Positions 4,930-27,372 of a DNA stretch of 29,572 nucleotides are shown here, one piece after another. The translations under genes were made by a program, and so were the position numbers. The notes under the pieces are model-generated. The model had not been told where the DNA came from, ran no database searches, and saw only the letters and a list, made by a program, of their open reading frames with translations. How positions within the stretch are numbered: the stretch's first letter is position 1; each line of letters opens with the position of its first letter. The stretch is from a virus: positions 1-29,572 of IMG/VR virus record IMGVR_UViG_3300038682_000093. The stretch is one strand, 5' to 3'.

Positions 4930-6407
4930 TATACGTTTGTTTCAACCGTTGGTGCACAACTAAACGCAACGGTTGTGGTACGTGTGACAGTGAATAAAGT
5001 TTTTGCTTGAGTAGCGCCACCATCACCCTCACAGAGATAAACACAATCCTTATCTGTACCTGCTGAACCGCCCACTGTATCGCCATCATAATCAAAGGCA
5101 TCGATAATCTTGTTGTTACCATCTGCCGTACTTGCAAGCCCTTTGATTACTGAAGTATCAGATGCTTGAACTTCGACAGCACCAGCAGTATTGAACGCAG
5201 CAGCAAAGTAACAGTGATACCAAGCATTGGCGTCGGCTTTTGCTATTGACCCGACAGTAGCTTCGATAGATACAGAGAAAGGTCTAGTTTTAGTACCACC
5301 TACATCGTCTGTGAATACAACTCGCTGTTCATCAGATACAGGGACATTTTCAATAAACAAACCCTGCCCTGAAAATGGTGCATCAGTAACTATCTGTCCT
5401 GCGCCGTTATAGGAATACCATGTACCAACCCGCTTACCGTTAGTGACATTAGTGATATGGTCATTAATATCATCATCAGTTTGCGCAAGCGCATCTAAAA
5501 ACGCAACGCATTCATCTAATGAACCAGATGCAGCATTGTTAAGAACCCATGTAAAATTACCATCGGCCTCGTTGAAGCCCGTTTCAACTTGTGGTGTATC
5601 AAGTTCCTCAAGTCCCATACTTGTCCAAGGCGCAATTTGCGCACCGCCATAAACATCAGCTAGTGTGTAGTTACCCGTTGTTAGGTGAGGTGTTTCTGAT
5701 ACCGCGAAACCCGCAAAATATTCACCAAGTTCTGTGATACCCAAATCAGTAGTTGATTCTTTACGGTCATAGTTTTGTCCAAAAGTTCTTACCGATACAG
5801 CCATATAAGTTCTACTGTCAAAATCTCCTGCACTTGCATCACTTGGCGTATTACCTGTAGAACCGAAAACTTGGATTAATTCATCAAAATTACCTGCCTT
5901 AGCAAAATCTACAGGGGCCCCACCTACGGACAGTTGTAAGTAAGGTTGGGAGGTAGGGAGTATTGAACCAAGACCTCTTGCACCCATAGATATTCTATCT
6001 GTACCACCGTCAGTTGCTAACTGTTTTACTCCTGAACCACGGATAATATCAATGTCTGCTTGTGTAGAAAATTTACGGGAGTTAACCAAGTTGAATGAAC
6101 CAGCGAATTTGAAATTGGCATTTGTCCAACGCTCATAAGGACGTAGTGATTCATCAGAAGCACGTTCCCTATTTTCAAAAGCATATAATGCTTCCATACG
6201 AATACCATCTTGTTGCGATAACGGATTGGGGTCAGACGCGCCACCACCAACACTCGTTAAATCTAAGGTCGGAAGTTCTTCCACAGGAATTATTTCAAGC
6301 AGTCCGTTAGTCTTATCGAAGTAGATATTCCCGTCAGGCGTACCTGCTCTACCTTGTGTACTCTGAACCAATGTAGTCGCTTGATTCGTTAAGTCTATAA
6401 TAGCCAT
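4929..6407 (-). CDS. Tail/fibre structural protein of marine-phage type, 492 aa
   Basis: The N-terminus (residues 1-50: MAIIDLTNQATTLVQS, GTPDGNIYFDK, LEIIPVEELPTLDL) is a pattern I recall from marine phage structural proteins. The rest is beta-rich, high in Gly, Thr, Asp and Ser, without signal peptide or membrane segments. Residues 86-93 (SDESLRPY) recur as TDETLRPY in the 181-aa protein. The C-terminus PTVETNV resembles the ends of the 411- and 911-aa LamG-like proteins (P, any residue, V/I, ETN, E/V). Probably a tail-tip, baseplate or fibre component. No enzymatic motif is seen. The exact role is not determinable from the sequence. Confidence 0.82.
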   Translation of the reverse strand: MAIIDLTNQATTLVQSTQGRAGTPDGNIYFDKTNGLLEIIPVEELPTLDLTSVGGGASDPNPLSQQDGIRMEALYAFENRERASDESLRPYERWTNANFKFAGSFNLVNSRKFSTQADIDIIRGSGVKQLATDGGTDRISMGARGLGSILPTSQPYLQLSVGGAPVDFAKAGNFDELIQVFGSTGNTPSDASAGDFDSRTYMAVSVRTFGQNYDRKESTTDLGITELGEYFAGFAVSETPHLTTGNYTLADVYGGAQIAPWTSMGLEELDTPQVETGFNEADGNFTWVLNNAASGSLDECVAFLDALAQTDDDINDHITNVTNGKRVGTWYSYNGAGQIVTDAPFSGQGLFIENVPVSDEQRVVFTDDVGGTKTRPFSVSIEATVGSIAKADANAWYHCYFAAAFNTAGAVEVQASDTSVIKGLASTADGNNKIIDAFDYDGDTVGGSAGTDKDCVYLCEGDGGATQAKTLFTVTRTTTVAFSCAPTVETNV

Positions 6408-6411
6408 TATT

Positions 6412-6699
6412 TTAGCCCTCTTTGACTAGTTTAAGTTCAGGAGTTTTGAAGGGACTCTCTGGGTCAAACCCTTTTAAATTCTGCTCTTTGGCAAAATCAA
6501 TACCTGCATTAAATGCTTTCAATTCATATTTTCTTGCGAACTTAATTATCTGGAACATAAGTTCATCAGACACACCGGAAGGGAATTCTGCAAGAACTGC
6601 ATCAGTAATGTTTTCCCTAACTAGCCAGTCTTGCTTAACACCATTATTTGTTAATTGGAACATATTTGCATTCTGTAATTGAATATAGTCTTTACTCAT
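6412..6699 (-). CDS. Small hypothetical protein, 95 aa
   Basis: A soluble, mainly helical protein (for example AVLAEFPSGVSDELMFQIIKFARKY in outline, residues about 34-58) ending in a Lys/Glu-rich tail. The ATG lies inside the end of the 911-aa gene (8-nt overlap), so it is likely translated by coupling. It sits directly after a receptor-binding candidate and before the 492-aa structural protein; many phages carry a small fibre-assembly chaperone in such a place, but nothing in the sequence proves that. I do not recognise a family. Confidence 0.72.
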   Translation of the reverse strand: MSKDYIQLQNANMFQLTNNGVKQDWLVRENITDAVLAEFPSGVSDELMFQIIKFARKYELKAFNAGIDFAKEQNLKGFDPESPFKTPELKLVKEG

Positions 6700-9427
6700 T
6701 AGTTTCTACCTGTGGTTGTAATGTAATTGATTGGTTAGTTGACTGTAAATTAAATGGTAAGTTAATCTCAACGTAACCCGTAGCTATATGCTGAATCCTT
6801 ATACCGTTTATAGTTCCATTATGCGAGTAAGAAAAGAATGTACCTGCATTAGATTCCACTCCATCTAATTCAGTATTATACTGGCCATCGCCATCTATCT
6901 CATCATCGTAAATTCTAACTTCTGCACCATCAATAACCCCATTTATAATAAGTGTAGCAGGTCTAAGCACCGTAACTGTACCACCATACGGTGTGGCCAC
7001 CTTACCGTCATCTATAATAGTGCCTGTAGCAGCAGTAAGTGTAAGCACATCAGAGCCTATGTATCTGATTTGTATGGAAACTCTATCATTAAAAGTAACA
7101 TTATCCATAGTTAGAGAAAAATCACCATCGGTACATGATTGTACTTCTATAGAACAAGGCCAGTCAGGGAAGTTTGAGTTTGCTATAGCGTCAACAGCGA
7201 GTTGCATATTAGCTTGGGTGTCGCTAGAAATAGTCACCTCTGCGGGAGCGCCTTTCTCAAACAGTGTTTGCCTTATATCCAAAGTATTATCTAGACTTGT
7301 ATTTGACCAACTATACCAATGAGCATACCAACAAGAGGTTGGTGATACAAACTCAATGACTGTTGCATCAACACCCCTGTCGTCCCCAACTTTTAAATCT
7401 TCTGTGCCTTCATGCCCCCAAGATATATTACCTGAATGCGTTGGGAAAACTGATACTTCCCAAGGATTTCCATTAGTTCGAGATTGGAAAACCCCATCAA
7501 GATGAACACCACATATACCACCTTTTTGCGTAGAAGAATTGAATTCACCTAGTATATGGTATGGCCTATTTGGAGTAAGAGCTATATCAAAAAATGCTTG
7601 GGCGTAGTCCCCATTGGCATCAGCAAACTGAAAAATCAAGTTGTTACCAAACCCTCCAAGTAACGCAAAGTTATTAACCTGAGCACCTTCCTCCCATATA
7701 ACATAGAGGTTTTGTGATATGTTACTTAGCATTATCCAACCACCAACATATCTCCTATTGGCTGTAATTGTCACATTCATATCAGATTGGTCTGCGGGAC
7801 TGATATACTCAGTCTGACTAGATATCAAGAAAGAGTGGGTATCGCCTTTTACTAACTGCGTAGTAGCATCAAAACCGGGCGAACCCCCAATAGAATTGTT
7901 AGCTGTGGCAGACTGAACTTCATCTATGTAAGTATTTTGGAAAGTCCAATAGTGGTCAGGGGCTAAAGTCATGTTCAAAACTGCTTCACGGTACGTTTCA
8001 GGGGGAGTTCCAACAACTACTGAAATACTGGCAACTGAACCTGAGTCCGTAGTTACAAATAAAAAACAATCAGTATCAGCAAGTGAGCCGGAAGTAACAT
8101 CAAATTGAATGACTGTATCAGACCAAGAGTCTATATTAGTTTGATTTACTATAACCCCTGAATAATCGGAGTTCTGTACTAATTCCACTTTACCTGTTCC
8201 TTGTAAAGCCTCGAACCCACCAGAAGAATTTACCACAACATTTAACTGCGAGTTACCAATTGCATTATCGCCATCTACGTCTGAGATTGATAGCTTCAAT
8301 GTGCCATCGATACCTGTTAGTTCTAAGACACCCCAATCTGCTCTAACATTGTTTCCCGAACGGTGGACCCAGTATTCAATTGTTCCAGAAGCAGCAGTTA
8401 TCCTTGCAGATAGTCGTCCACGTGCATGAGCCGTACCCACACCAGAAGTATCTGAGAACCATTCTAAAGAAAGCTCGTCCAGAAGCGCACTTGTCGATGA
8501 ACCAGAGGGCCATGTAGCATTAGTTGCATAAGTTCCATTACCTTCACTAATGTTAGTATTACTGTCGCGGTTTATTACAAAGGCAGGGTGAGATAAAACA
8601 TGACAATACGCAACACCGTCATTTCTAGCATTAGAATCTTGTTGCAGTATAAATTGTGCCTGTGTTGTAGAATCGGGAACCCACACACCGAGGTTATCAG
8701 ATATCCCAGTTTCAGAAGTATCACCTTCTAACGAACTTTCTATTATTATCGCATTACCCCAACTACCAACATCAAAGGCTAAACCATTTAGTCCAGTTGA
8801 GTCGGCGTTTAGAGTTATGGTTTCTGCCGTGGAATTATGACTAGCTGACCTTCCATGGCCTACTGAAAAATTAGCACCAACAAACTCAACTACGGTTATA
8901 TAAACAACCAAGGTTCCAGTAGTTGCGCCCCTCTCCACCTGTATTGTGTCAGTAGCATCTATGTATACACTGACAGTTGAAGAATCATAATCATCCACGC
9001 TAGTTGCGTCTGTTTCAGAACCTGTCCAAAAGGGAATACATTTATTTCTATCTGATATACCGGTAACAACTTGAGAGGCAGCAGCACTACCCGAAGATAG
9101 AGTAATACTGTATCGACCCCTCACAATGAATTCATCTGGACCGCTAACTGCCCCAGTGTATCGCCAAACTTCACCAATTATCTTTTGGCTTGTCGTAGTA
9201 TTCTGTCTAAATGAAATCTGATTTGTTGCGGATAGAAATGCAGCACCAGAACAAATATTTGGTGCTGAGTTACCAGTGCTAGCCGTAGGTCCAGATTGCT
9301 TATCTATCGATGTAGTTCGTCTAACAAATGCGTTGTTAAGTGAACCAACGTCATTAGAAAGTACATGCGTCTGCGTGTTAGTCGCAGTCACATCAACATC
9401 AAAACTTTCTACCTTAATAACACCCAT
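6692..9427 (-). CDS. Large LamG/ConA-like tail fibre or receptor-binding protein, 911 aa
   Basis: A long beta-rich protein, high in Ser, Thr, Asn and Gly, with no signal peptide. Roughly 1-480 is a module of its own (FDVDVTATNTQTHVL, then Ig-like strand patterns). Residues about 487-715 look like a laminin-G/concanavalin-A-like jelly roll (DHYWTFQN start, YHILGEFNSSTQKG, HLDGVF, SWGHEG). Residues about 720-911 are paralogous to the C-terminal half of the neighbouring 411-aa protein: LFEKGAPAEVTI, ATLIINGVIDGAEVRIYDDE, TELDGVESN, ATGY and a final VETNE. LamG-like domains commonly bind glycans, so host attachment is the likely job. It overlaps the 411-aa stop by one base. Confidence 0.85.
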   Translation of the reverse strand: MGVIKVESFDVDVTATNTQTHVLSNDVGSLNNAFVRRTTSIDKQSGPTASTGNSAPNICSGAAFLSATNQISFRQNTTTSQKIIGEVWRYTGAVSGPDEFIVRGRYSITLSSGSAAASQVVTGISDRNKCIPFWTGSETDATSVDDYDSSTVSVYIDATDTIQVERGATTGTLVVYITVVEFVGANFSVGHGRSASHNSTAETITLNADSTGLNGLAFDVGSWGNAIIIESSLEGDTSETGISDNLGVWVPDSTTQAQFILQQDSNARNDGVAYCHVLSHPAFVINRDSNTNISEGNGTYATNATWPSGSSTSALLDELSLEWFSDTSGVGTAHARGRLSARITAASGTIEYWVHRSGNNVRADWGVLELTGIDGTLKLSISDVDGDNAIGNSQLNVVVNSSGGFEALQGTGKVELVQNSDYSGVIVNQTNIDSWSDTVIQFDVTSGSLADTDCFLFVTTDSGSVASISVVVGTPPETYREAVLNMTLAPDHYWTFQNTYIDEVQSATANNSIGGSPGFDATTQLVKGDTHSFLISSQTEYISPADQSDMNVTITANRRYVGGWIMLSNISQNLYVIWEEGAQVNNFALLGGFGNNLIFQFADANGDYAQAFFDIALTPNRPYHILGEFNSSTQKGGICGVHLDGVFQSRTNGNPWEVSVFPTHSGNISWGHEGTEDLKVGDDRGVDATVIEFVSPTSCWYAHWYSWSNTSLDNTLDIRQTLFEKGAPAEVTISSDTQANMQLAVDAIANSNFPDWPCSIEVQSCTDGDFSLTMDNVTFNDRVSIQIRYIGSDVLTLTAATGTIIDDGKVATPYGGTVTVLRPATLIINGVIDGAEVRIYDDEIDGDGQYNTELDGVESNAGTFFSYSHNGTINGIRIQHIATGYVEINLPFNLQSTNQSITLQPQVETNE

Positions 9428-10662
9428 TATTCATTAGTCTCAATTTCAGGGAACAGTGTCTCTGTTGAGTTAGAACTAGATAGACTAACTTTTTTTATAA
9501 CTTCTTTATAACCGGAGGCAAGCATTTGTATCACAATGTCATTGGTGGACCCATCATGATTGAATGTAAAAGATGTTCCAACATTAGATTCGACGCCACT
9601 GAGTTCTGTATCGTATTGGTTGTTGGAATCAATTTCATCATCATAGATTCGAACCTCTGCGCCATTTATAATTCCGTTTATTGTTAAAGTAGCAGGGTTG
9701 ACAAAGTTAATCGTTCCTCCTGCTGTAGTTGAGCCAATCGAAGCATTAGAACCGTTTGAATTAGTCCAAGTTAACGTACCTGTTCCATTGTATTGTACAT
9801 GTATGCTAGCTAGTGGACTAAATGTAATGTTATCGGCAGTCAGACTAATAGAACCGGAAACATCAACTAATATACAAAGTGGAGAGTCTGGTCTAACAGT
9901 GGACGATATTGCATCTAATTCAAGTTGACTTGTTATTGTAACATCAGGAATAGCACCTTTCTCAAATAATTCTTCGCGGATTTGAGTGTCTGTGAGTTGA
10001 GCATTTGCTCCATCAAAGAAAGCCCATTGCGCATAATTACCATTAATGGGCGCAAGTAATATAACTGGTGTACCGCCAACGCCCACAACACCTGCTGGAT
10101 CGCCAAACTCGCCCGCGCTTCTAGCGGTTAAAGTGGTGGCATCGGGCTGTCTATTAATTGGTTCAGCATTGAATTGTTTGACACCATCCACATAGCCACG
10201 CAACTCATTACCGAAACCATTACCTTCAAACACCATAGTTAGATGGTAAGCGCGGTCAACTGCTAAAGTAATATCGCTAAAAATTTGTAGTGTGAATGCA
10301 GGGTCGTTAACCTCGAACATTACAGTATTGCCCCAACTAAGAATTAATCTAAACGATTGTATTTCATTACCGTCCCCATAAATGCTTTTGGGCGGACTTT
10401 GAAGCCCAGTAGCTGAGAACCATCCACACACTGCTTTTCTACTTTGTGCAGCGTTATTAATTAGAGGGGTTGTAGGTAGTGTAATCCTATCGTTGACTCC
10501 ATTTGTAGTCCAAGAACCTACCGAGTCTAAACACAAGTTTGGACCCGTGAATACTCCACCCGCATTAGTCCCATTGAGCGAACCTATAGAATCATTCGCA
10601 TCTGTAGCTAGCTCATATCTGGCTACTGGGTTGAGAGCATCGATGTCTTGACTGTAAGTCAT
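9427..10662 (-). CDS. LamG/ConA-like tail fibre or receptor-binding protein, 411 aa
   Basis: Residues about 8-228 form a LamG/concanavalin-A-like domain. It starts LNPVARYELA, has DSIGSLNGTN and a central YHLTMVFEGN, GYVDGVKQFNAEP pattern, and ends at WAFFDGANAQLTDTQIREELFEKGA. Residues about 229-411 are shared with the end of the 911-aa protein (ATLTINGIINGAEVRIYDDE, TELSGVESNVGTSF, LASGY, ending IETNE). The two genes are adjacent, so this is probably a duplication with divergence of the N-terminal heads. There is a 5-nt gap from the PagL-like gene upstream. Glycan binding at the host surface is inferred from the fold. Confidence 0.85.
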   Translation of the reverse strand: MTYSQDIDALNPVARYELATDANDSIGSLNGTNAGGVFTGPNLCLDSVGSWTTNGVNDRITLPTTPLINNAAQSRKAVCGWFSATGLQSPPKSIYGDGNEIQSFRLILSWGNTVMFEVNDPAFTLQIFSDITLAVDRAYHLTMVFEGNGFGNELRGYVDGVKQFNAEPINRQPDATTLTARSAGEFGDPAGVVGVGGTPVILLAPINGNYAQWAFFDGANAQLTDTQIREELFEKGAIPDVTITSQLELDAISSTVRPDSPLCILVDVSGSISLTADNITFSPLASIHVQYNGTGTLTWTNSNGSNASIGSTTAGGTINFVNPATLTINGIINGAEVRIYDDEIDSNNQYDTELSGVESNVGTSFTFNHDGSTNDIVIQMLASGYKEVIKKVSLSSSNSTETLFPEIETNE

Positions 10663-10667
10663 TAAAC

Positions 10668-11174
10668 TTAGAACTCATATCCAACACTGATGAAATCCAT
10701 TCCACCATTATTTGAGGATGACCCACCAGTGCTGAAATGCTTATAGTTGATTAAAAAGTTATCAATCCTATAGCCTACGCCTAGAACATAGGGCGTATTG
10801 CTATTCCAAGACGGTGTTTGGTTATGCCAGTAGCTCATTCCAAATAGCATTTCAAAATCTTTATACTTAACCAAACGTCCTAAATAGATGGCTTGATTAG
10901 CACTAGTTAATTCGCCACGCTTACATGGATTGCCTTCTTTACAGTCTAGTCTTAGCTGTAGCATGATTCCGACTTCATACTTATCATTGAATACTTCCTC
11001 AAATGATAAGTTTTCTGAATCATAATACTCGCCACCGACAAAGGTTGCTCCTGCTGAAAGATTGAACCTTGTAGCGCCTTTTGACTCTTTAGATAAAACA
11101 AAGAGGAATAGAAATATAAACACAATTATTGCTATTGTAGTGCCATTTTTCCACGGACTTCTGAATTTACCCAT
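10668..11174 (-). CDS. PagL-like outer-membrane lipid A deacylase / acyloxyacyl hydrolase, 168 aa
   Basis: Residues 1-35 look like a signal peptide: basic start (KFRSPWKNG), hydrophobic core about 12-28 (TTIAIIVFIFLFLFVLS), possible cleavage near KGA/T35. The mature part alternates hydrophobic residues as in a small beta-barrel, has a Cys pair (C79 and C85 region, LDCKEGNPCKRG) and ends in aromatic YEF, as outer-membrane proteins often do. The last strands read KHFSTGG...NNGGMDF. PagL uses His and Ser two residues apart plus a Glu 14 after the His; here His146, Ser148 and Asp160 keep the spacing, with Asp for Glu. PagL removes the 3-O-acyl chain of lipid A in the outer membrane. Placement beside the lysis cassette suggests action on the host envelope. 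Another small barrel remains possible. Confidence 0.68.
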   Translation of the reverse strand: MGKFRSPWKNGTTIAIIVFIFLFLFVLSKESKGATRFNLSAGATFVGGEYYDSENLSFEEVFNDKYEVGIMLQLRLDCKEGNPCKRGELTSANQAIYLGRLVKYKDFEMLFGMSYWHNQTPSWNSNTPYVLGVGYRIDNFLINYKHFSTGGSSSNNGGMDFISVGYEF

Positions 11175-11175
11175 T

Positions 11176-11259
11176 TTAACAATCCCATATAGTTTTTGAT
11201 TTTCGATTCTTCTTTTTAGCGTTATCTAAGGCCCGCTCATGCCAGTTCTTACTTTTCAT
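11176..11259 (-). CDS. Possible 27-aa basic small protein
   Basis: A short ORF (start MKSKNWHERAL, end KTIWDC) exactly fills the gap between the 73-aa holin-like gene, whose end it overlaps by 11 nt, and the PagL-like gene, whose ATG follows its TAA after one base. It is rich in Lys/Arg. There is no clear ribosome-binding site; translation would rely on coupling. The fit of both boundaries to the coupling pattern of the operon supports it, but a 28-codon ORF can arise by chance. Confidence 0.35.
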   Translation of the reverse strand: MKSKNWHERALDNAKKKNRKSKTIWDC

Positions 11260-11470
11260 GGATAGCAGTATCAGTTTTGTAAGTGCGTATCAACGAATTA
11301 AGCACTAACCCAAGCAACGCAAATGATTCAACAGACATGAAATTAGTTGTCACCCATGATTTAAACTCGGGAGACATAAGAATGCCCATCATGAGCGTAG
11401 CGCCTACAGTATTAAACCAGTTAGCAGTAGACCTAAAGAACGCTTTAGTTTTAGCTAAGAAATCATCCAT
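11249..11470 (-). CDS. Small membrane protein, second holin candidate, 73 aa
   Basis: Residues about 19-34 (FNTVGATLMMGILMSP) and 49-62 (SFALLGLVLNSLIR) form two hydrophobic segments, followed by a short charged tail. The NWFN start and the LNSLIRTYKTDTAI ending resemble a common family of small phage holin-like proteins in which a WFN motif precedes the first segment and an N..IR...T..AI motif closes the second. GAGGA lies about 8 nt before the ATG. It overlaps the end of Rz1 by 8 nt and sits at the end of the lysis cassette. It may be the holin, an antiholin or an accessory pore protein; the 85-aa protein upstream competes for the role. Confidence 0.72.
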   Translation of the reverse strand: MDDFLAKTKAFFRSTANWFNTVGATLMMGILMSPEFKSWVTTNFMSVESFALLGLVLNSLIRTYKTDTAIHEK

Positions 11471-11849
11471 TGTTATAGTCCTCTATACATTGAGTTAAAT
11501 AATTGATAATTAAGTTTCGGTCTTTAATTGCTTTCAACGCAAGCTGAGTATTAGCCGCTAGGTTCTTATAGTATTGCTCTTCAATCCCTATAATTTTTCT
11601 ACCATCTTCTGCTGTGGCAACCACCCATATAATCTTCTCCCAATCAGGCTTAGTTTGCTGCGGTGGTTCTGGACAGACTAGGATTTCCCGCTTGTATTCT
11701 ACTACCGGAACTTTAATTTGTTTCGGCTTTGAACTCGTCATACACCCTGCCAGTAGCGCGGTTAGCATAACGAACAATAAGACTGGCTTTCTTGTCCATA
11801 AGTCTTTCAATACGTCCACACTCTTTGTCAAATACGGCGAGGGCATCAT
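11463..11849 (-). CDS. o-spanin, Rz1-like outer-membrane lipoprotein, 128 aa
   Basis: Residues 19-36 form a lipoprotein signal: basic TRK, hydrophobic VLLFVMLTAL, then lipobox L33-A34-G35-C36. Cys36 would be lipidated and the protein anchored in the outer membrane. The mature part has a short Pro-rich stretch (CPEPPQQTKPDW), typical of Rz1, followed by helical sequence. It starts 137 nt before the end of the Rz-like gene in another frame, the classic overlapping Rz/Rz1 arrangement, although its length is above the small lambda Rz1. Together with the i-spanin it would span the periplasm and fuse the two membranes in the last step of lysis. Confidence 0.85.
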   Translation of the reverse strand: MMPSPYLTKSVDVLKDLWTRKPVLLFVMLTALLAGCMTSSKPKQIKVPVVEYKREILVCPEPPQQTKPDWEKIIWVVATAEDGRKIIGIEEQYYKNLAANTQLALKAIKDRNLIINYLTQCIEDYNNG

Positions 11850-12189
11850 CTTTCTCCTGCTTTACGGCAATCAATTTGCCTTCTAATTTCTTTCTGTTCA
11901 GTATGGCATTATCGAATTCTTCACGCTGCTTTTGAATTTCTTCTGTAGCTTGGGATAACTGGACCCCTAGATCCTCATTGGCTTTATAAGCTAACTGTAA
12001 ATGTAATTCCTTCTCCGACAATTCAGCTTGCATGGACGAATACTTGTACGTTATGTATGTAGCTGTAACAGTCAGGGAAATAAACAGCAAAACAATCATA
12101 GTAATTTTAGCTCTTTTAGACGTACTAAATGCGAAACCAAATACAGATTTTAAAACCGCTAATATAACATCAGGATTCATCATACTCAC
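11713..12189 (-). CDS. i-spanin, Rz-like inner-membrane protein, 158 aa
   Basis: One membrane segment (about 30-47, MIVLLFISLTVTATYITYKY) after a basic KRAK, then a long coiled coil (about 52-118, rich in Glu, Gln, Lys and Leu) that would lie in the periplasm. This N-in/C-out design with periplasmic coiled coil is that of Rz spanins. The gene overlaps the 85-aa holin candidate by 20 nt and its 3' part carries the Rz1-like gene in a different frame. The N-terminal extension before the membrane segment (about 29 residues) is longer than in lambda Rz; a later Met start is possible but Met3/4 are the only ones nearby. Confidence 0.83.
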   Translation of the reverse strand: MSMMNPDVILAVLKSVFGFAFSTSKRAKITMIVLLFISLTVTATYITYKYSSMQAELSEKELHLQLAYKANEDLGVQLSQATEEIQKQREEFDNAILNRKKLEGKLIAVKQEKDDALAVFDKECGRIERLMDKKASLIVRYANRATGRVYDEFKAETN

Positions 12190-12445: not shown

Positions 12446-12835
12446 TCATTTTTTAAGTTGGAAATGCGGCATGTCTATGAAACCTTTCCAGTCACCGCCC
12501 CATGTTATGTCGATATTGTGGATGTTTGCCGCTGCCTTTATTACGTCAGCTACCTGCTCTAAGTGATAAGGGTCCCACGATGCTGCGCCATCTACATACG
12601 CATATACATCCACTGCGTTACCCGATTGGTGGTACGACTTGCGTTGGTACCCATCACACTTGGACTTACCCTCGTTAAATAGAGCGCGCTGTTCCTCTGC
12701 GGTACGAAGGCCCCCAGAACTAGGTATGCCAAAATCTATATCCGACATACTTATAGCCTCGTTAAATACTTTCTGTAGGTCGGGGTGGACCTTACTAAGT
12801 ACTAGCTTGGAGCGCTTGGAAAATTCGTAATTCAT
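12446..12835 (-). CDS. M15-family peptidoglycan peptidase (endolysin), 129 aa
   Basis: This carries the Zn-peptidase signature of the M15 (VanY / L-alanyl-D-glutamate peptidase) family: S67-Y-H69-Q-S-G72-N-A-V-D76 and, near the C-terminus, D121-M-P-H124-F. His69, Asp76 and His124 would bind zinc, with Asp121 in the position of the catalytic acid. GGLRTAEEQRALFNEGKSKCDG (42-62 in outline) is the usual substrate-side helix. The length matches single-domain phage endolysins such as that of T5. There is no signal peptide, so release depends on a holin. It is the first gene of the lysis cassette, 18 nt before the holin candidate. Confidence 0.92.
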   Translation of the reverse strand: MNYEFSKRSKLVLSKVHPDLQKVFNEAISMSDIDFGIPSSGGLRTAEEQRALFNEGKSKCDGYQRKSYHQSGNAVDVYAYVDGAASWDPYHLEQVADVIKAAANIHNIDITWGGDWKGFIDMPHFQLKK

Positions 12836-12838
12836 AAA

Positions 12839-13438
12839 TCACCCGTATGTAAGTGAGGCCCTATCGGTCCATACGTTAGTAAATGCGTTACTACTGTCGG
12901 CGTACAAAGTCGTAGTATCTCCATCGGCCGCTATAGTTATCTGCTTTATCTGCCATGCTGAATCACTATCGCCGGAACCTACTGCTGCCTTACCGGAATA
13001 TATTAGCGTGTCGCCTACGAAATCTGTTCTCGTTGTATAGTCCACTTCATCATCCACCCACTCTGTATCATAATCTATATCGGTTGCTTTTTGTAGTACT
13101 TGTCCTGTAGTTCCCCCCGCAGGTACGCCTACACCGTCCTGTCCGTCCGCACCCGGACCTCCGGGTGGCCCTACTGTACCTGTGTCGGAGCTGGAGGACG
13201 TAGATACGACACCGGTAACAGGGTCTATAATACCTAATTCTACTAGGTCACGTACGGATATGAAGCTGTCCATGACATCCCCCCGCTGACGCGTCGCTAT
13301 CTCAACAAGCTCCTTCATCGCGGCGATTGACTCCTCGACGGAGCCCTTATAAGGGTCCACTGGAGTTGGATAGATTGTGGCGTTTGACACCACATCCTCC
13401 CGCAGCTGTTTAATTCTTTGTGCTAAGACGTCAGACAT
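12839..13438 (-). CDS. Fibre-like protein with short collagen-like stretch, 199 aa
   Basis: N-terminal 75 residues are helical; residues about 87-105 hold a short Gly-X-Y run (GPPGGPGADGQDGVG), followed by VPAGGTTGQVLQK...YDTEWVDDE, a motif I recall as common in phage fibre and baseplate proteins; the C-terminus is strand-rich. Collagen-like runs usually trimerise fibre shafts. The gene overlaps the end of the 613-aa nozzle-like gene by 8 nt and precedes the endolysin by 3 nt. Probably a tail fibre or tail-tip component attached to the nozzle; no enzymatic motif. Confidence 0.8.
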   Translation of the reverse strand: MSDVLAQRIKQLREDVVSNATIYPTPVDPYKGSVEESIAAMKELVEIATRQRGDVMDSFISVRDLVELGIIDPVTGVVSTSSSSDTGTVGPPGGPGADGQDGVGVPAGGTTGQVLQKATDIDYDTEWVDDEVDYTTRTDFVGDTLIYSGKAAVGSGDSDSAWQIKQITIAADGDTTTLYADSSNAFTNVWTDRASLTYG

Positions 13439-15272
13439 TGCGTAGTTCCCGCGCAGTACTTGCTGCCTTTATCGATTGTATTGGGCGCTGTCCTTCTACT
13501 TCAAACATCCACCGTGTCGCACGGAATGAGCTTGGCAACCGGATTAGGTTTTCCGTAGTATTAACTGTACCCTCAAATTTGAGGTATTCAGTTCCCTCGA
13601 TAATTACATATACTCGAAAGATAACATCGGGGGATACGCTCGTAGTATCTATATCAAATAACGGACTACCTGCCAAAGACAATCGGTTATCCGGTAGTCC
13701 CGTGCCCGTGTCGATTGGAGCGGCATCCCCTGCGACAGCGGTGCCTCCAATCGTATTTAACGGCGAAGCTATACGTACGTTGTTGTATGTCTGTTCATCA
13801 CTACTAACCACACCTAAGTCGCTATCAACACCTTCAAATGTAATCCTAGCTGCACCTAAATTTATCGGTGTTGGGGTGACGTACTCTTTGCTCCTCCATG
13901 TATAAGTTAACGGGGCTGCGGACTCGGCATCCCAGTTATACAGAGCGGTGCCGGTAAACAATAGTATCTCCCCTGTATGGGTATTAGTCTGTACACCGAC
14001 TACAGGCAAGTCGTTAGATATTTCAATGAATGCCGACATTGGCTCATTAGGGTCAAATATAAACCCCTGCGTATCGCCAAAGAACGCGATGTACTGGTTG
14101 TGGTACGATGATGCACGGATATTATCTGGGTTGTATTCATCCTGCCACTCATACTTAGATAGCAACTGTTTGGTTACTATAGAGGGGTTCGGGCCATTTA
14201 CAAGAACAAGTCCGTTTGATGAAGCATACAGTACGCCATAGATGGTAGTAGCTATAGACTGCCTAGACAAACAGGGCTCTACCGAACTCGATGTCCGTAA
14301 TGTAATTGAGGCAGGGTTCACCCCTACCCCAATAAATGGGGCGGCGTTTGTACAAGCGACTATGCTCTGTCCGAATACACCCATACCTACCACGTCATAT
14401 TCTATGGCTTGTTGATAATTGTCCGGCCACGCATGAGGGCGGTATACCTCGGACATATAAATATTACGGCCGGACCACCCAACTAAAAACCCATTCGGCA
14501 TAACAACAGCCCCCTCCAAATCAGAGGGGGGTTCAGTCCACGTGGTGGACTCTAGTAATGGCCCTTGCGTGGCCTCATAATCTGTAGATGTATCCGTATA
14601 CGTGACTTGGTTGCCTACTGCCGGTATAGATAGCGTAGCTATACGGAAGTATGTAGCTGAGTTATACCCTGTCACACTTCGGTATATGTGGATACTGGTG
14701 ATAGACCTGTCTGCCATTTCAGTTCTTGGGAATGAATCACTTCGTATCGTTACAATCCAGTCTCCACTAATCTCGCCCGAGGCTAATGTAGGTTCTGACG
14801 GGGCAGACTCTTCTCCGAACTCAGACACCAATGTATAAATGTAACTGCGGGATTCTATTAGCGTAGTATCGGGATTATCTGTAGTAGTCAGTGATGGTGG
14901 CTGTCGTGGTGAAGGTACACCTAAGTGTAACCACGGGTCTCCACTTATCAATCTAGCGGCGGTATTGTATTGCGGTACGCCCTCACCGAACTTATAGAAC
15001 CTATCATAACTATCATTAAGTAGTGGTGATTGCAGTATATCCGCGTCTTTTGTAGTGGTCGTTTCTATATGCTGCGTACCGTCATTGAAACGTAATACGT
15101 GCGCTGCGGCTCCAGAGAGTCCACCAGCTATAGCGAGTGTACTTCGCAAGGCCCGTAACGTGCCAGAGAGTAGTCTAGCGTTAGTAGCTACAGAAGCATT
15201 GACTGCAGGTAGTAGCGCATCTGCTCTACGTGGGACCATGCCAGTGAATTGGTTTATGTTTATCGATGTCAC
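13431..15272 (-). CDS. Podoviral tail nozzle-like protein, 613 aa
   Basis: The N-terminus (MTSININQFTGMVPRRADALLPAVNASVATNARLLSGTLRAL in outline) fits the GMVPRxDPRLLPxxxAxxAxNxxLxSG pattern found, from memory, in nozzle-type proteins of short-tailed phages. The remainder has repeated strand patterns typical of a beta-propeller-like nozzle barrel (YIYTLVSEFGEESAPSEP, SITSIHIYRSV, GFLVGWSGRNIYMSE, WPDNYQQAIEYDVVGM). Length is in the usual range for T7 gp12/P22 gp10-type proteins. The nozzle closes the tail tube and carries fibres. It overlaps the following 199-aa gene by 8 nt and the preceding 250-aa gene by 1 nt. Confidence 0.78.
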   Translation of the reverse strand: MTSININQFTGMVPRRADALLPAVNASVATNARLLSGTLRALRSTLAIAGGLSGAAAHVLRFNDGTQHIETTTTKDADILQSPLLNDSYDRFYKFGEGVPQYNTAARLISGDPWLHLGVPSPRQPPSLTTTDNPDTTLIESRSYIYTLVSEFGEESAPSEPTLASGEISGDWIVTIRSDSFPRTEMADRSITSIHIYRSVTGYNSATYFRIATLSIPAVGNQVTYTDTSTDYEATQGPLLESTTWTEPPSDLEGAVVMPNGFLVGWSGRNIYMSEVYRPHAWPDNYQQAIEYDVVGMGVFGQSIVACTNAAPFIGVGVNPASITLRTSSSVEPCLSRQSIATTIYGVLYASSNGLVLVNGPNPSIVTKQLLSKYEWQDEYNPDNIRASSYHNQYIAFFGDTQGFIFDPNEPMSAFIEISNDLPVVGVQTNTHTGEILLFTGTALYNWDAESAAPLTYTWRSKEYVTPTPINLGAARITFEGVDSDLGVVSSDEQTYNNVRIASPLNTIGGTAVAGDAAPIDTGTGLPDNRLSLAGSPLFDIDTTSVSPDVIFRVYVIIEGTEYLKFEGTVNTTENLIRLPSSFRATRWMFEVEGQRPIQSIKAASTARELRNV

Positions 15273-23085: not shown

Positions 23086-24063
23086 TTACTGCTTAACAAT
23101 ACCTACCGCAAGGCCAGTACCGTCAACAACTTTGTAACCATACACCTGTAGTCCTCGCATCATGTGCCCGAAGGTACGCTCTGCTCGGATGGTTTCGGTT
23201 TTAGTAACCTGCGACGCGAAGGTTAACCCATGTTGATGTCCTGCGAATACAGTCCACTCTAGGTTATCCCGTGGTAACAAGTTAGATACATAAACCGTAG
23301 TACGGTCAATCATACCAACACGTCCGTTACGCAAGATAGAGGTAGAGTCCCCTGCGATAGACGCGTCTTTCAACTCACCTGTTTTGATTCTGTTACAGAA
23401 CCATGCAGGTAAGATAACGTAACGCCCAGTCTCTGGGATGTTCTGCTCGTCAAGCGCTTGGTTAAGGTCGACGATAAAGTCAACAGCGTTTCGGATACTG
23501 GTTGAACCATCGCCACCACCTGTCGCTAGGATTTGGGTAGCTGTAGTACCGGCACCTGCCGCTGCAACACCTAACTGCAAGCTACCTGAAATAGCGCCAG
23601 CGATATTACCTTGGTTTGATGCGTCAACATCAACAGCGATATTACCTAACACGTCAGTATCAATTTGAATCTTCATCTGCTCAGAAGCATCTTCTGCCCA
23701 GATATTCATCATATTGATATCGCTTTGTGTTTCCATAACATCATCAACAATCGCGTTCCAGTACTTACCTTTATCGATGTTCAGTGACACGATATTAGAA
23801 GTAGGACGCTGTACCGCTAGCTCTTGTCCAGCTTGGTAATCGTTGATAGTCAACGTAGGGCGAGTTCGGATATTAACTTGGTCGCCTTGGCTTTTAATCT
23901 CACCCTCATAATCAGTATTAGCCATTACGTTTAATACTGTGGTGTTGTAGAACTTCTCAATTAATTTAGAAGACCACAACGTAGGGATGAACGTGCCTGA
24001 ATAGGCGGGAGACGGTGCGGCGGCACCATCATAATACTGCGACGCAGCAACTGTAAACGGCAT
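23086..24063 (-). CDS. Major capsid protein, HK97 fold, 325 aa
   Basis: The N-terminus (FIPTLWSSKLIEKFYNTTVLNVMANTDYEGEI in outline), then KSQGDQVNIRTRPTLTINDYQAGQ, is the recognised N-arm/E-loop start of a family of podovirus major capsid proteins (WSxKLxxxFYxxTVxxxxANTDYEGEI). The centre contains A-domain-like segments (ETGRYVILPAWF) and the end holds DNLEWTVFAGHQHGLTFASQVTKTETIRAERTFGHMMRGL in outline, the typical final strands and spine helix. The length is normal. AGGAA precedes the ATG by 8 nt. It lies between scaffold and connector genes, and a hairpin follows it. It forms the icosahedral shell. Confidence 0.9.
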   Translation of the reverse strand: MPFTVAASQYYDGAAAPSPAYSGTFIPTLWSSKLIEKFYNTTVLNVMANTDYEGEIKSQGDQVNIRTRPTLTINDYQAGQELAVQRPTSNIVSLNIDKGKYWNAIVDDVMETQSDINMMNIWAEDASEQMKIQIDTDVLGNIAVDVDASNQGNIAGAISGSLQLGVAAAGAGTTATQILATGGGDGSTSIRNAVDFIVDLNQALDEQNIPETGRYVILPAWFCNRIKTGELKDASIAGDSTSILRNGRVGMIDRTTVYVSNLLPRDNLEWTVFAGHQHGLTFASQVTKTETIRAERTFGHMMRGLQVYGYKVVDGTGLAVGIVKQ

Positions 24064-25120: not shown

Positions 25121-25336
25121 TTATGGTTTCATCCTATCCATGTCGGATAGGAATTCGGTGTACGCAGACGCACGCGTAGAAAAGTGCGCTTGCAGAACAG
25201 GGTCCGTGGTACTCATAGCGGATTTAAGATGGTCATCGCGTTTATCTTCTATTGCTTTAAGCAATATCTTAAACTCAGGAATATCTCTGAGTGTTATACA
25301 AGCGCGGTGGTGTTGGTCGGTTTTTATTACATTCAT
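25121..25336 (-). CDS. Small helical protein between portal and scaffold, 71 aa
   Basis: A soluble protein with two probable helices (DIPEFKILLKAIEDKRDDHLKSAMS in outline, then DPVLQAHFSTRASAYTEFLSDM). The ATG overlaps the portal stop by 4 nt (ATGA). Small helical ORFs in this spot are common in podoviruses and remain without a known function; the segment HHRACITLRDIPEFK recalls proteins annotated only as hypothetical. A role in capsid assembly or portal regulation is inferred from position. Confidence 0.78.
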   Translation of the reverse strand: MNVIKTDQHHRACITLRDIPEFKILLKAIEDKRDDHLKSAMSTTDPVLQAHFSTRASAYTEFLSDMDRMKP

Positions 25337-27372
25337 ATATTGCCGCTAGGTCCACGCACGGATTGTTGCTGCGGGGCTGCGGCCTGTTGAGGTGAACCTT
25401 CCCCTTGGGGATTTGGTGCTTGCTCGGATGCCGCTTGCGCCTGCTGCTGTTCAGCAATCTGTGCAAGTATGGTCTCTTCATCGGGCATAGAATCCTGAAC
25501 TCGATTGAGTCCAATTCCGCCCGCCACTTCTTTCAAAATCTCACTACGGACACCGGGACCCACAATCTGCGAATCTATCGGGTTGGCCGTAATGTTCAAG
25601 AATTCTAGCTGTCTCATACGCTCTGTTTCGCGTTGGAGGGCTTTAGTTACTCCGGTAATACGGAGTTCGATGTCGCCTTTGTACGTTCCCTCGGGTGAGG
25701 TCAACGCTAATAGCTCATGTACGTGTGTCAGTGCGGGGGTAAGAATATCCTTGTCCACATGACTAGCGACAGTCTGAATTAATTTCGATGCGTTCTGCAT
25801 GAGCATGTTCAGTCCACTAGCCGTACGTCCCGCACCTCCACTCGCTCCAGAGCCTTGCATATAGCGCGGGATGCCACTGGCCTCGTCCGTCGCTACATTT
25901 AATTGGGAATACACAGAGAGTAGTTCTTGTGCGTTTGATTGTGGTTGGAAGAACCTAACCACCGGTTGATTAGAACCTGTAGGGTCAGACGCAGTGAGCC
26001 ACCGTTTCCACGGGTATAATTCCATTTCATTGTCCGTCGCCTGCATGCGGTCCATATTCACCTCGACCTGTGGTCCCGATGCCATGGCCATATTGTTGAC
26101 CAGACTACGCAGGCTTGCGTTCATCACGTCTTCGTAATCCGACAAAATCTCAGGTAAGCCTTGTCCGACACTCGCACCCGGAGTCTTATCATATGAGGTG
26201 ATGTAGTATATGGGGCGCTCGGAGGTATGTGGGTTGAGCGTAATGCGTATGATACGGCTGTCCACAAGCCATACTCGGCATGAATATTCTGCGGATGGGT
26301 CTTTAATCTTCGTAATCCCATAGGTCTGGAGCATACTACCCTGTACATAACCGTGGAATTCTAAGGCGTCAATGGTGTCCGTCTGACTCGTTGGGTCTTC
26401 TTTGTTCTCCAAATCACTACGTTCGGAATCAATTGAATCCACCCAATCCGTTAAACCCCCCATACTATACTGCTCCAGTATGGCGTCGATGGCGTCTTTG
26501 TTATACCCCTCTAGGTCTCGATATGATGACAAGTCACCCCGCGTTAGTGGTACTCGCTCAATAATCTCACGGCGATGGGGACGAGATTCCCTAGGAGAGA
26601 AATAAATATCGAATGGGCTTATCCGCTTCCACACCATTTCTGGCGCAACAACTTTCTTCGCCTTACCATTGACCCACTCCATCTTGGTCCTCATTTCAAC
26701 AATGGGTCCCTTGAGTACTGCATAAGGGAACACAGGTAAGTCGATGAGGAAATCTGCTAACGCTTCATAGAATCCGCCTTGTACTAGTAAGTCTTGTATA
26801 CGGTCGCCCTGTTCCTCCGCTTCCTTCTCCGCCGTTTTCCGCTGCTGCTTCTCAATCATCTTACGGAGCGCTAACGTACGTTCAATGACTAACTCCTCAG
26901 TTATCTGCATCCCTTCGGATTCTGCTTGGGCAACTTCTGCCTGAACCAACTGGGCAACTAGTTCAATTACCTCACCGGGTAAATCAGGTACCGGTGTTGG
27001 CCTTGTGAACCAAGGGCGGTCGGTGGATAAGTAGATATCGCGTAGTAACGCCGTAGCACTACGGCACTTACTCGCTACCACTTTAGAATACACCTTACTA
27101 CCGCCAAACTTATTTATCTCGTTGAGCTTTTCCGCATCGTACTTCCCGCGATATGCGCGTAAGGCAGAGATTAATAACTCAGAAATCCCCTGTGTTTCCC
27201 TTTCATTTCTAAAATGGCTATACTTAGTTCGGACTAAATTGACAATCCCAGATTCAGACATTGGCGTGAGCTTTAGGTTCGCCAGAGCACCTGCTTCCAT
27301 CGTCTGCTTAGTAGTTTCCGCTGCAGCCTGTGCCTCTGCATCAAGTTGTATAGGAGATTTTACTTGTATCAT
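25333..27372 (-). CDS. Portal protein, 679 aa
   Basis: Length and sequence match the portal of large podovirus type. N-terminal helical stretch, RSATALLRDIYLSTDRPWF near 105-122, then a stem/clip region including RISPFDIYFSPRES, DYEDVMNASLRSLVNNMAMASGPQVEVN in outline, and ASGIPRYMQGSGASGGAGRTASGLNMLMQNASKL in outline, a conserved portal segment. The end is Gln/Ala-rich (AQIAEQQQAQAASEQ). It forms the dodecameric ring at the capsid vertex through which the terminase pumps DNA. First gene of the leftward late series, divergent from the terminase genes. Confidence 0.9.
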   Translation of the reverse strand: MIQVKSPIQLDAEAQAAAETTKQTMEAGALANLKLTPMSESGIVNLVRTKYSHFRNERETQGISELLISALRAYRGKYDAEKLNEINKFGGSKVYSKVVASKCRSATALLRDIYLSTDRPWFTRPTPVPDLPGEVIELVAQLVQAEVAQAESEGMQITEELVIERTLALRKMIEKQQRKTAEKEAEEQGDRIQDLLVQGGFYEALADFLIDLPVFPYAVLKGPIVEMRTKMEWVNGKAKKVVAPEMVWKRISPFDIYFSPRESRPHRREIIERVPLTRGDLSSYRDLEGYNKDAIDAILEQYSMGGLTDWVDSIDSERSDLENKEDPTSQTDTIDALEFHGYVQGSMLQTYGITKIKDPSAEYSCRVWLVDSRIIRITLNPHTSERPIYYITSYDKTPGASVGQGLPEILSDYEDVMNASLRSLVNNMAMASGPQVEVNMDRMQATDNEMELYPWKRWLTASDPTGSNQPVVRFFQPQSNAQELLSVYSQLNVATDEASGIPRYMQGSGASGGAGRTASGLNMLMQNASKLIQTVASHVDKDILTPALTHVHELLALTSPEGTYKGDIELRITGVTKALQRETERMRQLEFLNITANPIDSQIVGPGVRSEILKEVAGGIGLNRVQDSMPDEETILAQIAEQQQAQAASEQAPNPQGEGSPQQAAAPQQQSVRGPSGNI

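Follow-up and report, generated by a model that had tools for sequence, protein, structure and literature searches.

Does a phage carry its own enzyme for editing lipid A? Phages alter O-antigen and carry outer-membrane barrels. The question arises from a metagenomic virus record of 29,572 b (the window, meaning the whole stretch of DNA analysed), in which a gene between a lysis cassette and two probable fibre genes encodes P0001, a protein that resembles the outer-membrane enzyme PagL. PagL takes the 3-O acyl chain off lipid A. In a study of that enzyme (PMC4958258), recombinant PagL in Salmonella increased vesiculation and deacylated lipid A built up in the vesicles, whereas a His/Ser double mutant was inactive. 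We propose that P0001 is a phage-borne lipid A deacylase, divergent and probably active, that is produced late in infection, and we give this reading a probability of roughly 0.6.

The Gene and Its Surroundings

A longer contig of the same phage, IMGVR_UViG_3300038566_000115 (54,799 b), is 100% identical to the window over the 12,504 b compared. Its first 20 kb are occupied by replication genes on the opposite strand. The minus strand of the window encodes, in this order, the portal, the major head protein, an internal virion protein, the endolysin, a likely holin, a pair of spanin candidates, a 73-residue membrane protein, P0001 and two probable fibres with similar C-termini (Table 1). Judged by the portal protein, the closest isolated phages infect Rhizobium, RHph_TM3_14A (43% identity) among them; Roseobacter phages and Puniceispirillum phage HMO-2011 follow at 23–25%. 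The presence of spanins implies a Gram-negative host.

An earlier sequence-only reading had placed a 168-residue exported protein at positions 10668 to 11174. Coordinates and length are correct, and the coding strand is the minus strand; the plus strand is full of stop codons there. The claimed signal peptide was recognized by eye, as a hydrophobic export segment ahead of the cut listed in Table 1. The export signal, a homologue in a second phage and the position in the late region led us to reject a chance open reading frame. Ahead of the gene lies a gap of 74 bases (11175-11248, minus) in a late region that is otherwise tightly packed, and by eye this gap contains no clear Shine–Dalgarno motif. 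On the other side, 5 bases separate the stop codon of P0001 from the start of the 411-residue possible fibre.

The same reading described the neighbors as a holin candidate and two fibre candidates, which is right in outline. Its holin candidate, the 73-residue protein, remains a guess: this protein matches no family in Pfam, PHROG or NCBIfam, and is possibly a second holin or an antiholin. The case for the two fibres is made by position and similar C-termini; for both proteins, of 411 and 911 residues, the PHROG search was empty and Pfam gave no significant match. Their C-terminal segments of about 90 residues (6692-10662, minus; GAEVRIYDDEID...ETNE) are alike, which suggests a common attachment or trimerization domain. 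The last ~70 residues of the 411-residue protein (9427-9690, minus) also match the C-terminal domain of TonB (PDB 6sly, E 6e-5). The similar C-terminus of the 911-residue protein gives no such match, and the TonB similarity may reflect chance or a small common fold.

Table 1. Features of the window discussed in the text
Feature	Position	Strand	Basis
Portal	25333-27372	minus	phrog_332
Major head protein	23086-24063	minus	phrog_267
Internal virion protein	13431-15272	minus	phrog_511
Endolysin, M15 peptidase, 129 aa; opens the lysis cassette	12446-12835	minus	phrog_465, 1.5e-50; PF13539, 1.3e-11
Likely holin, 85 aa	12170-12427	minus	phrog_13707, 7e-13 (without function label); phrog_20 holin, 0.028
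Likely i-spanin, 158 aa; overlaps the o-spanin gene	11713-12189	minus	phrog_739 Rz-like spanin, 0.028; N-terminal hydrophobic stretch by eye
o-Spanin, 128 aa; lipobox LLAGC	11463-11849	minus	phrog_812 Rz-like spanin, 8e-6
Membrane protein, 73 aa	11249-11470	minus	hydrophobic stretches in the sequence
PagL-like coding sequence, P0001, 168 aa	10668-11174	minus	open reading frame and translation; PF09411, 19.1 bits; relative P0002, 28.4 bits, BLASTP 6e-10
Predicted export signal, residues 1-33, cut between SKG and ATRF	11076-11174	minus	sequence read by eye; counterpart in P0002 cut between QG and AERM
Mature part, residues 34-168, predicted eight-strand barrel	10671-11075	minus	AlphaFold2 on alignment A12, pLDDT 82.7, pTM 0.76
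Strands 7-8 with putative catalytic hairpin FLINYKHFSTGGSSSNNGGMDFISVGYEF, residues 140-168	10671-10757	minus	alignment to bacterial PagL HFSNGG..NPGLDF
His146 codon (PagL His126 column, His 87/87)	10737-10739	minus	PagL alignment
Ser148 codon (PagL Ser128 column, Ser 87/87)	10731-10733	minus	PagL alignment
Asp160 codon (PagL Glu140 column; Glu 32, Asp 18, Asn 22, Thr 11 of 87)	10695-10697	minus	PagL alignment
Possible tail fibre, 411 aa	9427-10662	minus	position; C-terminus like that of the 911-aa protein

Sequence Relationship to PagL

PF09411, the PagL family proposed for this protein by the sequence-only reading, is the sole Pfam match of P0001 in a search up to E 10 (E 0.0015). The match was thus obtained, yet it lies below the curated cut-off of 23 bits, which P0002, a relative from a second phage, exceeds. 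Since P0001 scores under 23 bits, we call it PagL-like, that is, a divergent homologue, and not a formal member of PF09411. Of 299 Pseudomonadota genomes, 90 contain a match to this family at E ≤0.01, 80 of them above the cut-off. With P0001 as a single query, the solved PagL (2ERV) was not recovered up to E 10, and none of four genomes carrying PagL was matched by P0001. Its best PHROG hit was a family of unknown function at E 0.14, and NCBIfam gave none.

For comparison we assembled 87 PagL sequences from 30 PF09411 loci and 55 further stretches, supplemented by an iterated search and by five sequences of the Pseudomonas type. Two rows were left out, one without His-x-Ser (L181) and one with His-x-Ser but without the rest of the motif (L179). 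Unrelated outer-membrane barrels were drawn from 30 PF13505 loci, 26 of which yielded an open reading frame, 20 of these ending in F, W or Y. Against the profile of the 87 PagL, P0001 scores 18.5 bits, and the best of 20,000 shuffles 10.3 bits. The unrelated barrels reach 17.0 bits, so this profile partly scores barrel-ness, and we dropped the whole-profile score as proof of PagL.

The pattern H.S.{7}N.G.[DEN] is present in 64 of the 87 bacterial PagL. Of 20,000 shuffled versions of P0001, 3 contain it, and none of the 26 other barrels does. Among 788 open reading frames from viral loci it picks four rows that represent two proteins, P0001 (in three overlapping loci) and P0002. It is this putative catalytic hairpin pattern, not the whole profile, that sets P0001 apart from unrelated barrels. 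On a profile of the hairpin only, P0001 scores 7.4 bits and the best barrel 2.8 bits; every one of the 87 PagL scores higher than P0001, and so do at least five shuffles out of 20,000. Judged by sequence alone, P0001 is clearly a divergent case of PagL.

A BLASTP search against the mature parts of the 87 PagL and P0002, together with 6,000 shuffles, gave a more specific order. P0002 came first among the non-self matches, with 37.0 bits across 81 columns at the C-terminus, ranks 2 to 11 were ten PagL, and the best shuffle followed at rank twelve with 23.9 bits; the 26 unrelated outer-membrane barrels gave zero matches. A two-row profile of P0001 and P0002 hit six of 398 genomes, and three of these hits are PagL genes of the 87-member set (G272, G131, G281). 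The match of the A12 profile to 2ERV (1.4e-44) was set aside as evidence, because the rows of A12 are mostly PagL. Taken together, we regard homology of P0001 to PagL as very likely.

A Relative in a Second Phage

A scan of viral contigs with a PagL alignment gave one confirmed locus, which encodes P0002, also 168 residues long, at positions 5620-6126 of stretch L182 from IMGVR_UViG_3300021420_000314, a virus contig of 56,311 b. This protein carries an export signal and HFSNAGTSSPNQGRD, passes the PF09411 cut-off at 28.4 bits, and has the full motif with Asn129 kept and Asp as the acid. An alignment of P0001 with P0002 covers almost all of both proteins, with about 25–26% identity (BLASTP 6e-10). 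Their phages also have in common a replication module of six coding-strand open reading frames (L190, L182), including polymerase (34% identity), exonuclease (34%) and helicase (44%).

The gene of P0002 lies inside this module, among replication and nucleotide genes. On one side is a DUF6899 protein, itself following a 'DNA transfer protein', and on the other a protein matching nucleoside deoxyribosyltransferase; no lysis gene was found within 6 kb on either side. The open reading frame L182:6569-7234, 0.44 kb downstream, matches a PHROG family labeled 'endolysin; inhibits RNA polymerase' (2.9e-53). It was dropped as a lysis gene, as Pfam matches it to dATP/dGTP diphosphohydrolase (4e-18) and the PHROG label looks wrong. 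Because P0002 sits among replication genes, we infer that the PagL-like gene was probably moved, or gained twice, and that its use would not be tied to the lysis cassette.

Scans of viral contigs with PagL-type queries identified only IMGVR_UViG_3300038566_000115 and IMGVR_UViG_3300021420_000314 as carriers; such scans rely on short conserved peptides, and divergent copies can escape them. Up to E 1, none of 50,697 phage records matched either P0001 or P0002; a search of 72,556 plasmids with P0001 likewise found no match. In genome contigs, P0001 gave 22 pattern matches and zero relatives. Two matches of P. aeruginosa PagL to the phage records at E 4, and one of a bacterial PagL (L120) at E 0.5, were taken as chance. 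In a set of ten records, PF09411 was found in that of L182 and in none of the nine others with related endolysins. The syntenic stretches of Rhizobium phage RHph_TM3_14A and Agrobacterium phage Atu_ph08 (15.8 and 19.7 kb) contain no convincing PagL, with a best score of 3.4 bits.

Putative Active-Site Residues

In P. aeruginosa PagL (2ERV) we take the active site to consist of His126, Ser128 and Glu140, with Asn136 and Gly138 presumably acting on the oxyanion side. As the sequence-only reading had proposed, P0001 contains His146-x-Ser148 and Asp160 at these positions, and a check against the sequence positions of 2ERV confirmed that the acid stands at His +14, as in the P. aeruginosa enzyme. 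The residues of the hairpin by position are His146, Phe147, Ser148, Thr149, Gly150, Gly151, Asn156, Gly158 and Asp160. The His126 and Ser128 columns are invariant in the 87 PagL; Asn136 and Gly138 are each found in 85, Asn129 in 77 and Gly131 in 58. P0001 retains the His, Ser, Gly131, Asn136 and Gly138 columns, the last two as Asn156 and Gly158.

The earlier reading had flagged Asp instead of Glu as a caveat. This concern proved unfounded, and we dropped it as an argument against PagL, because Asp is ordinary at this column (18 of the 87 bacterial PagL). The other residues found there are Asn (22) and Thr (11) besides Glu (32), and an acid at His +14 is not universal within the family. At the Asn129 column P0001 has Thr149, a residue that never occurs there in the 87 PagL; those without Asn have His, Asp or Gln, and Asn129 is therefore common in PagL and not universal. 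At the Phe104 column (Phe in 83 of 87), P0001 has Tyr in one alignment.

Predicted Fold and Competing Readings

Without relatives, AlphaFold2 gave no usable model of P0001 (pLDDT 43). A good model was obtained from alignment A12, which adds P0002 along with ten fragments of Pseudomonas PagL that span strands 4–8 only. This model has exactly eight strands (pLDDT 82.7, pTM 0.76), in line with the barrel expected by the sequence-only reading. Strands 4–8 were guided by the PagL fragments, and strands 1–3 closed the barrel from the two phage sequences alone. Three of the five A12 models reached pLDDT 79–83 and two about 51; the aligner shifted strand 6 relative to the register of the profile match.

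Residue alternation in the last two strands places His146 and Ser148 on one face of strand 7 with Phe140, Ile142 and Tyr144, and Asp160 on one face of strand 8 with Ile162, Val164, Tyr166 and Phe168. The opposite faces are mixed (Leu141, Asn143, Lys145, Phe147; Met159, Phe161, Ser163, Gly165, Glu167). In the model, His146, Ser148 and Asp160, with the flanking Asn and Gly, thus probably face the lipid where strands 7 and 8 run into their loop, as we assume for the catalytic set of PagL. The predicted strand ends (107–115 and 125–134, mature numbering) would put His113 and Asp127 opposite each other. This arrangement agrees with the proximity of His146 and Asp160 that the sequence-only reading would require of a model: the two residues are predicted on adjacent antiparallel strands, with alternation setting them on the lipid-facing side.

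Could P0001 be a barrel that descends from PagL and has lost catalysis, serving at the surface like phage barrels of the Lom/Ail/OmpX type in adhesion, receptor masking or superinfection exclusion? The structural comparisons leave room for this reading. The five top matches in Foldseek are to Ail, PagP and PagL, with Ail first, and several of the best matches in a viral structure library are outer-membrane barrels from phages. With VIA-align, 2ERV superposes on the model with Z 13.1 (rmsd 2.9, 120 residues), Ail (11.5) and OmpX (10.4–10.8) score lower, and OmpA (14.3), OmpW (14.3) and OprF (13.8) fit as well or slightly better, the range for these three non-enzymatic barrels being Z 13.6–14.3. 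Fold likeness was consequently dropped as proof of PagL; the model supports an eight-strand outer-membrane barrel, and the fold does not pick the family. The Thr in place of Asn129 and the weakest hairpin score among the PagL-like proteins compared point the same way. Against a non-catalytic barrel stand the His, Ser, acid, Asn136, Gly131 and Gly138 columns, which are retained despite only ~26% identity to P0002, and P0002 itself, which has the full motif including Asn129. We consider loss of catalysis rather unlikely.

A second reading accepts an active outer-membrane esterase and assigns it another substrate: a different position of lipid A, a phospholipid or a host-specific glycolipid. Strands 1–6 are strongly unlike PagL, the Phe104 column reads Tyr in the alignment mentioned above, and strands 3 and 4 are joined by a long loop that contains Cys 78 and Cys 84, all of which would fit a changed substrate. 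The hairpin is nonetheless PagL-like, and in the database tested the nearest non-phage matches are all PagL, which makes this reading improbable. That P0001 is an unrelated eight-strand barrel with HxS...NxGxD by coincidence is very improbable: unrelated barrels do come close on the whole PagL profile and shuffles do produce the motif (3 of 20,000), but none of the 26 barrels has it, the BLASTP order is specific (P0002, ten PagL, then a shuffle) and the homologous P0002 lies above the Pfam cut-off.

Proposed Role in Infection

The preferred reading of P0001 as an active lipid A deacylase allows the following scheme. The gene is probably expressed late, because it ends the lysis cassette and precedes the fibre genes. 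P0001 would then be synthesized late, exported by its N-terminal signal and assembled as a barrel in the outer membrane. There Ser148, activated by His146 and Asp160, would release an ester-linked acyl chain from LPS in the infected cell's outer leaflet, with the 3-O chain of lipid A as the likeliest target. That P0001 acts as an esterase on lipid A is in our view fairly likely. The underacylated LPS would loosen and curve the outer membrane, promoting vesicle shedding and easier release, and would change the surface met by progeny or rival phages.

A direct role of P0001 in lysis is doubtful. The outer-membrane step of lysis is already supplied by the spanins, and the location of the P0002 gene among replication genes weakens a lysis-specific role. 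Since the use of the gene does not appear to be tied to the lysis cassette, membrane remodeling or receptor change would be favored over a dedicated lysis step. More generally, the prospect that phages related to Puniceispirillum phage HMO-2011 carry a mobile PagL-type lipid A deacylase, which remodels host LPS in infection, seems to us about even.

If the proposal is correct, a PagL would here be described from a phage for the first time; no report of a phage PagL was found in the literature covered (PMC6863877 and PMC9804370 among it), most subscription journals lying outside that coverage. The virus-made change would affect lipid A, not O-antigen, and would act on the anchor of the entire outer leaflet. 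One small protein would join phage release, vesicle shedding and receptor change, and P0001 may be a new source of lipid A deacylase.

Comparison with Known Systems

With PagL of P. aeruginosa (2ERV; PF09411), P0001 shares the export signal, the predicted eight strands, His-x-Ser on strand 7, the acid at +14 on strand 8, and the loop Asn and Gly. It differs in being phage-borne, in its 12–19% identity to 15 Pseudomonas-type PagL, in its Asp acid, its Thr for Asn129 and its score below the Pfam cut-off; the turn between strands 6 and 7 is shorter, and a long loop with two Cys connects strands 3 and 4. P0002 resembles P0001 in length, layout and Asp acid, and their phages share a replication module with 34–44% identity. 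In contrast to P0001, it keeps Asn129, lies above the Pfam cut-off and is encoded among replication and nucleotide genes.

Barrels of the Lom/Ail/OmpX type are likewise eight-strand outer-membrane barrels. To our knowledge, they do not carry the His-x-Ser...acid set. In Pfam (E up to 10) only PagL matched P0001, and the 26 barrels that gave no match represent a general outer-membrane set. LpxR (PF09982), also a lipid A deacylase, belongs to another family, with a larger barrel and another active site than PagL. Its gene has been placed in phage regions: a preprint (PMC13192938) describes two prophage sRNA genes whose hits in E. coli have, in >98% of cases, LpxR and the antitermination gene Q no more than 10 kb away. 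These are lambdoid prophage regions, unlike the phage of P0001. The PagL family and LpxR near prophage genes were known already; a PagL in a phage would be the new element.
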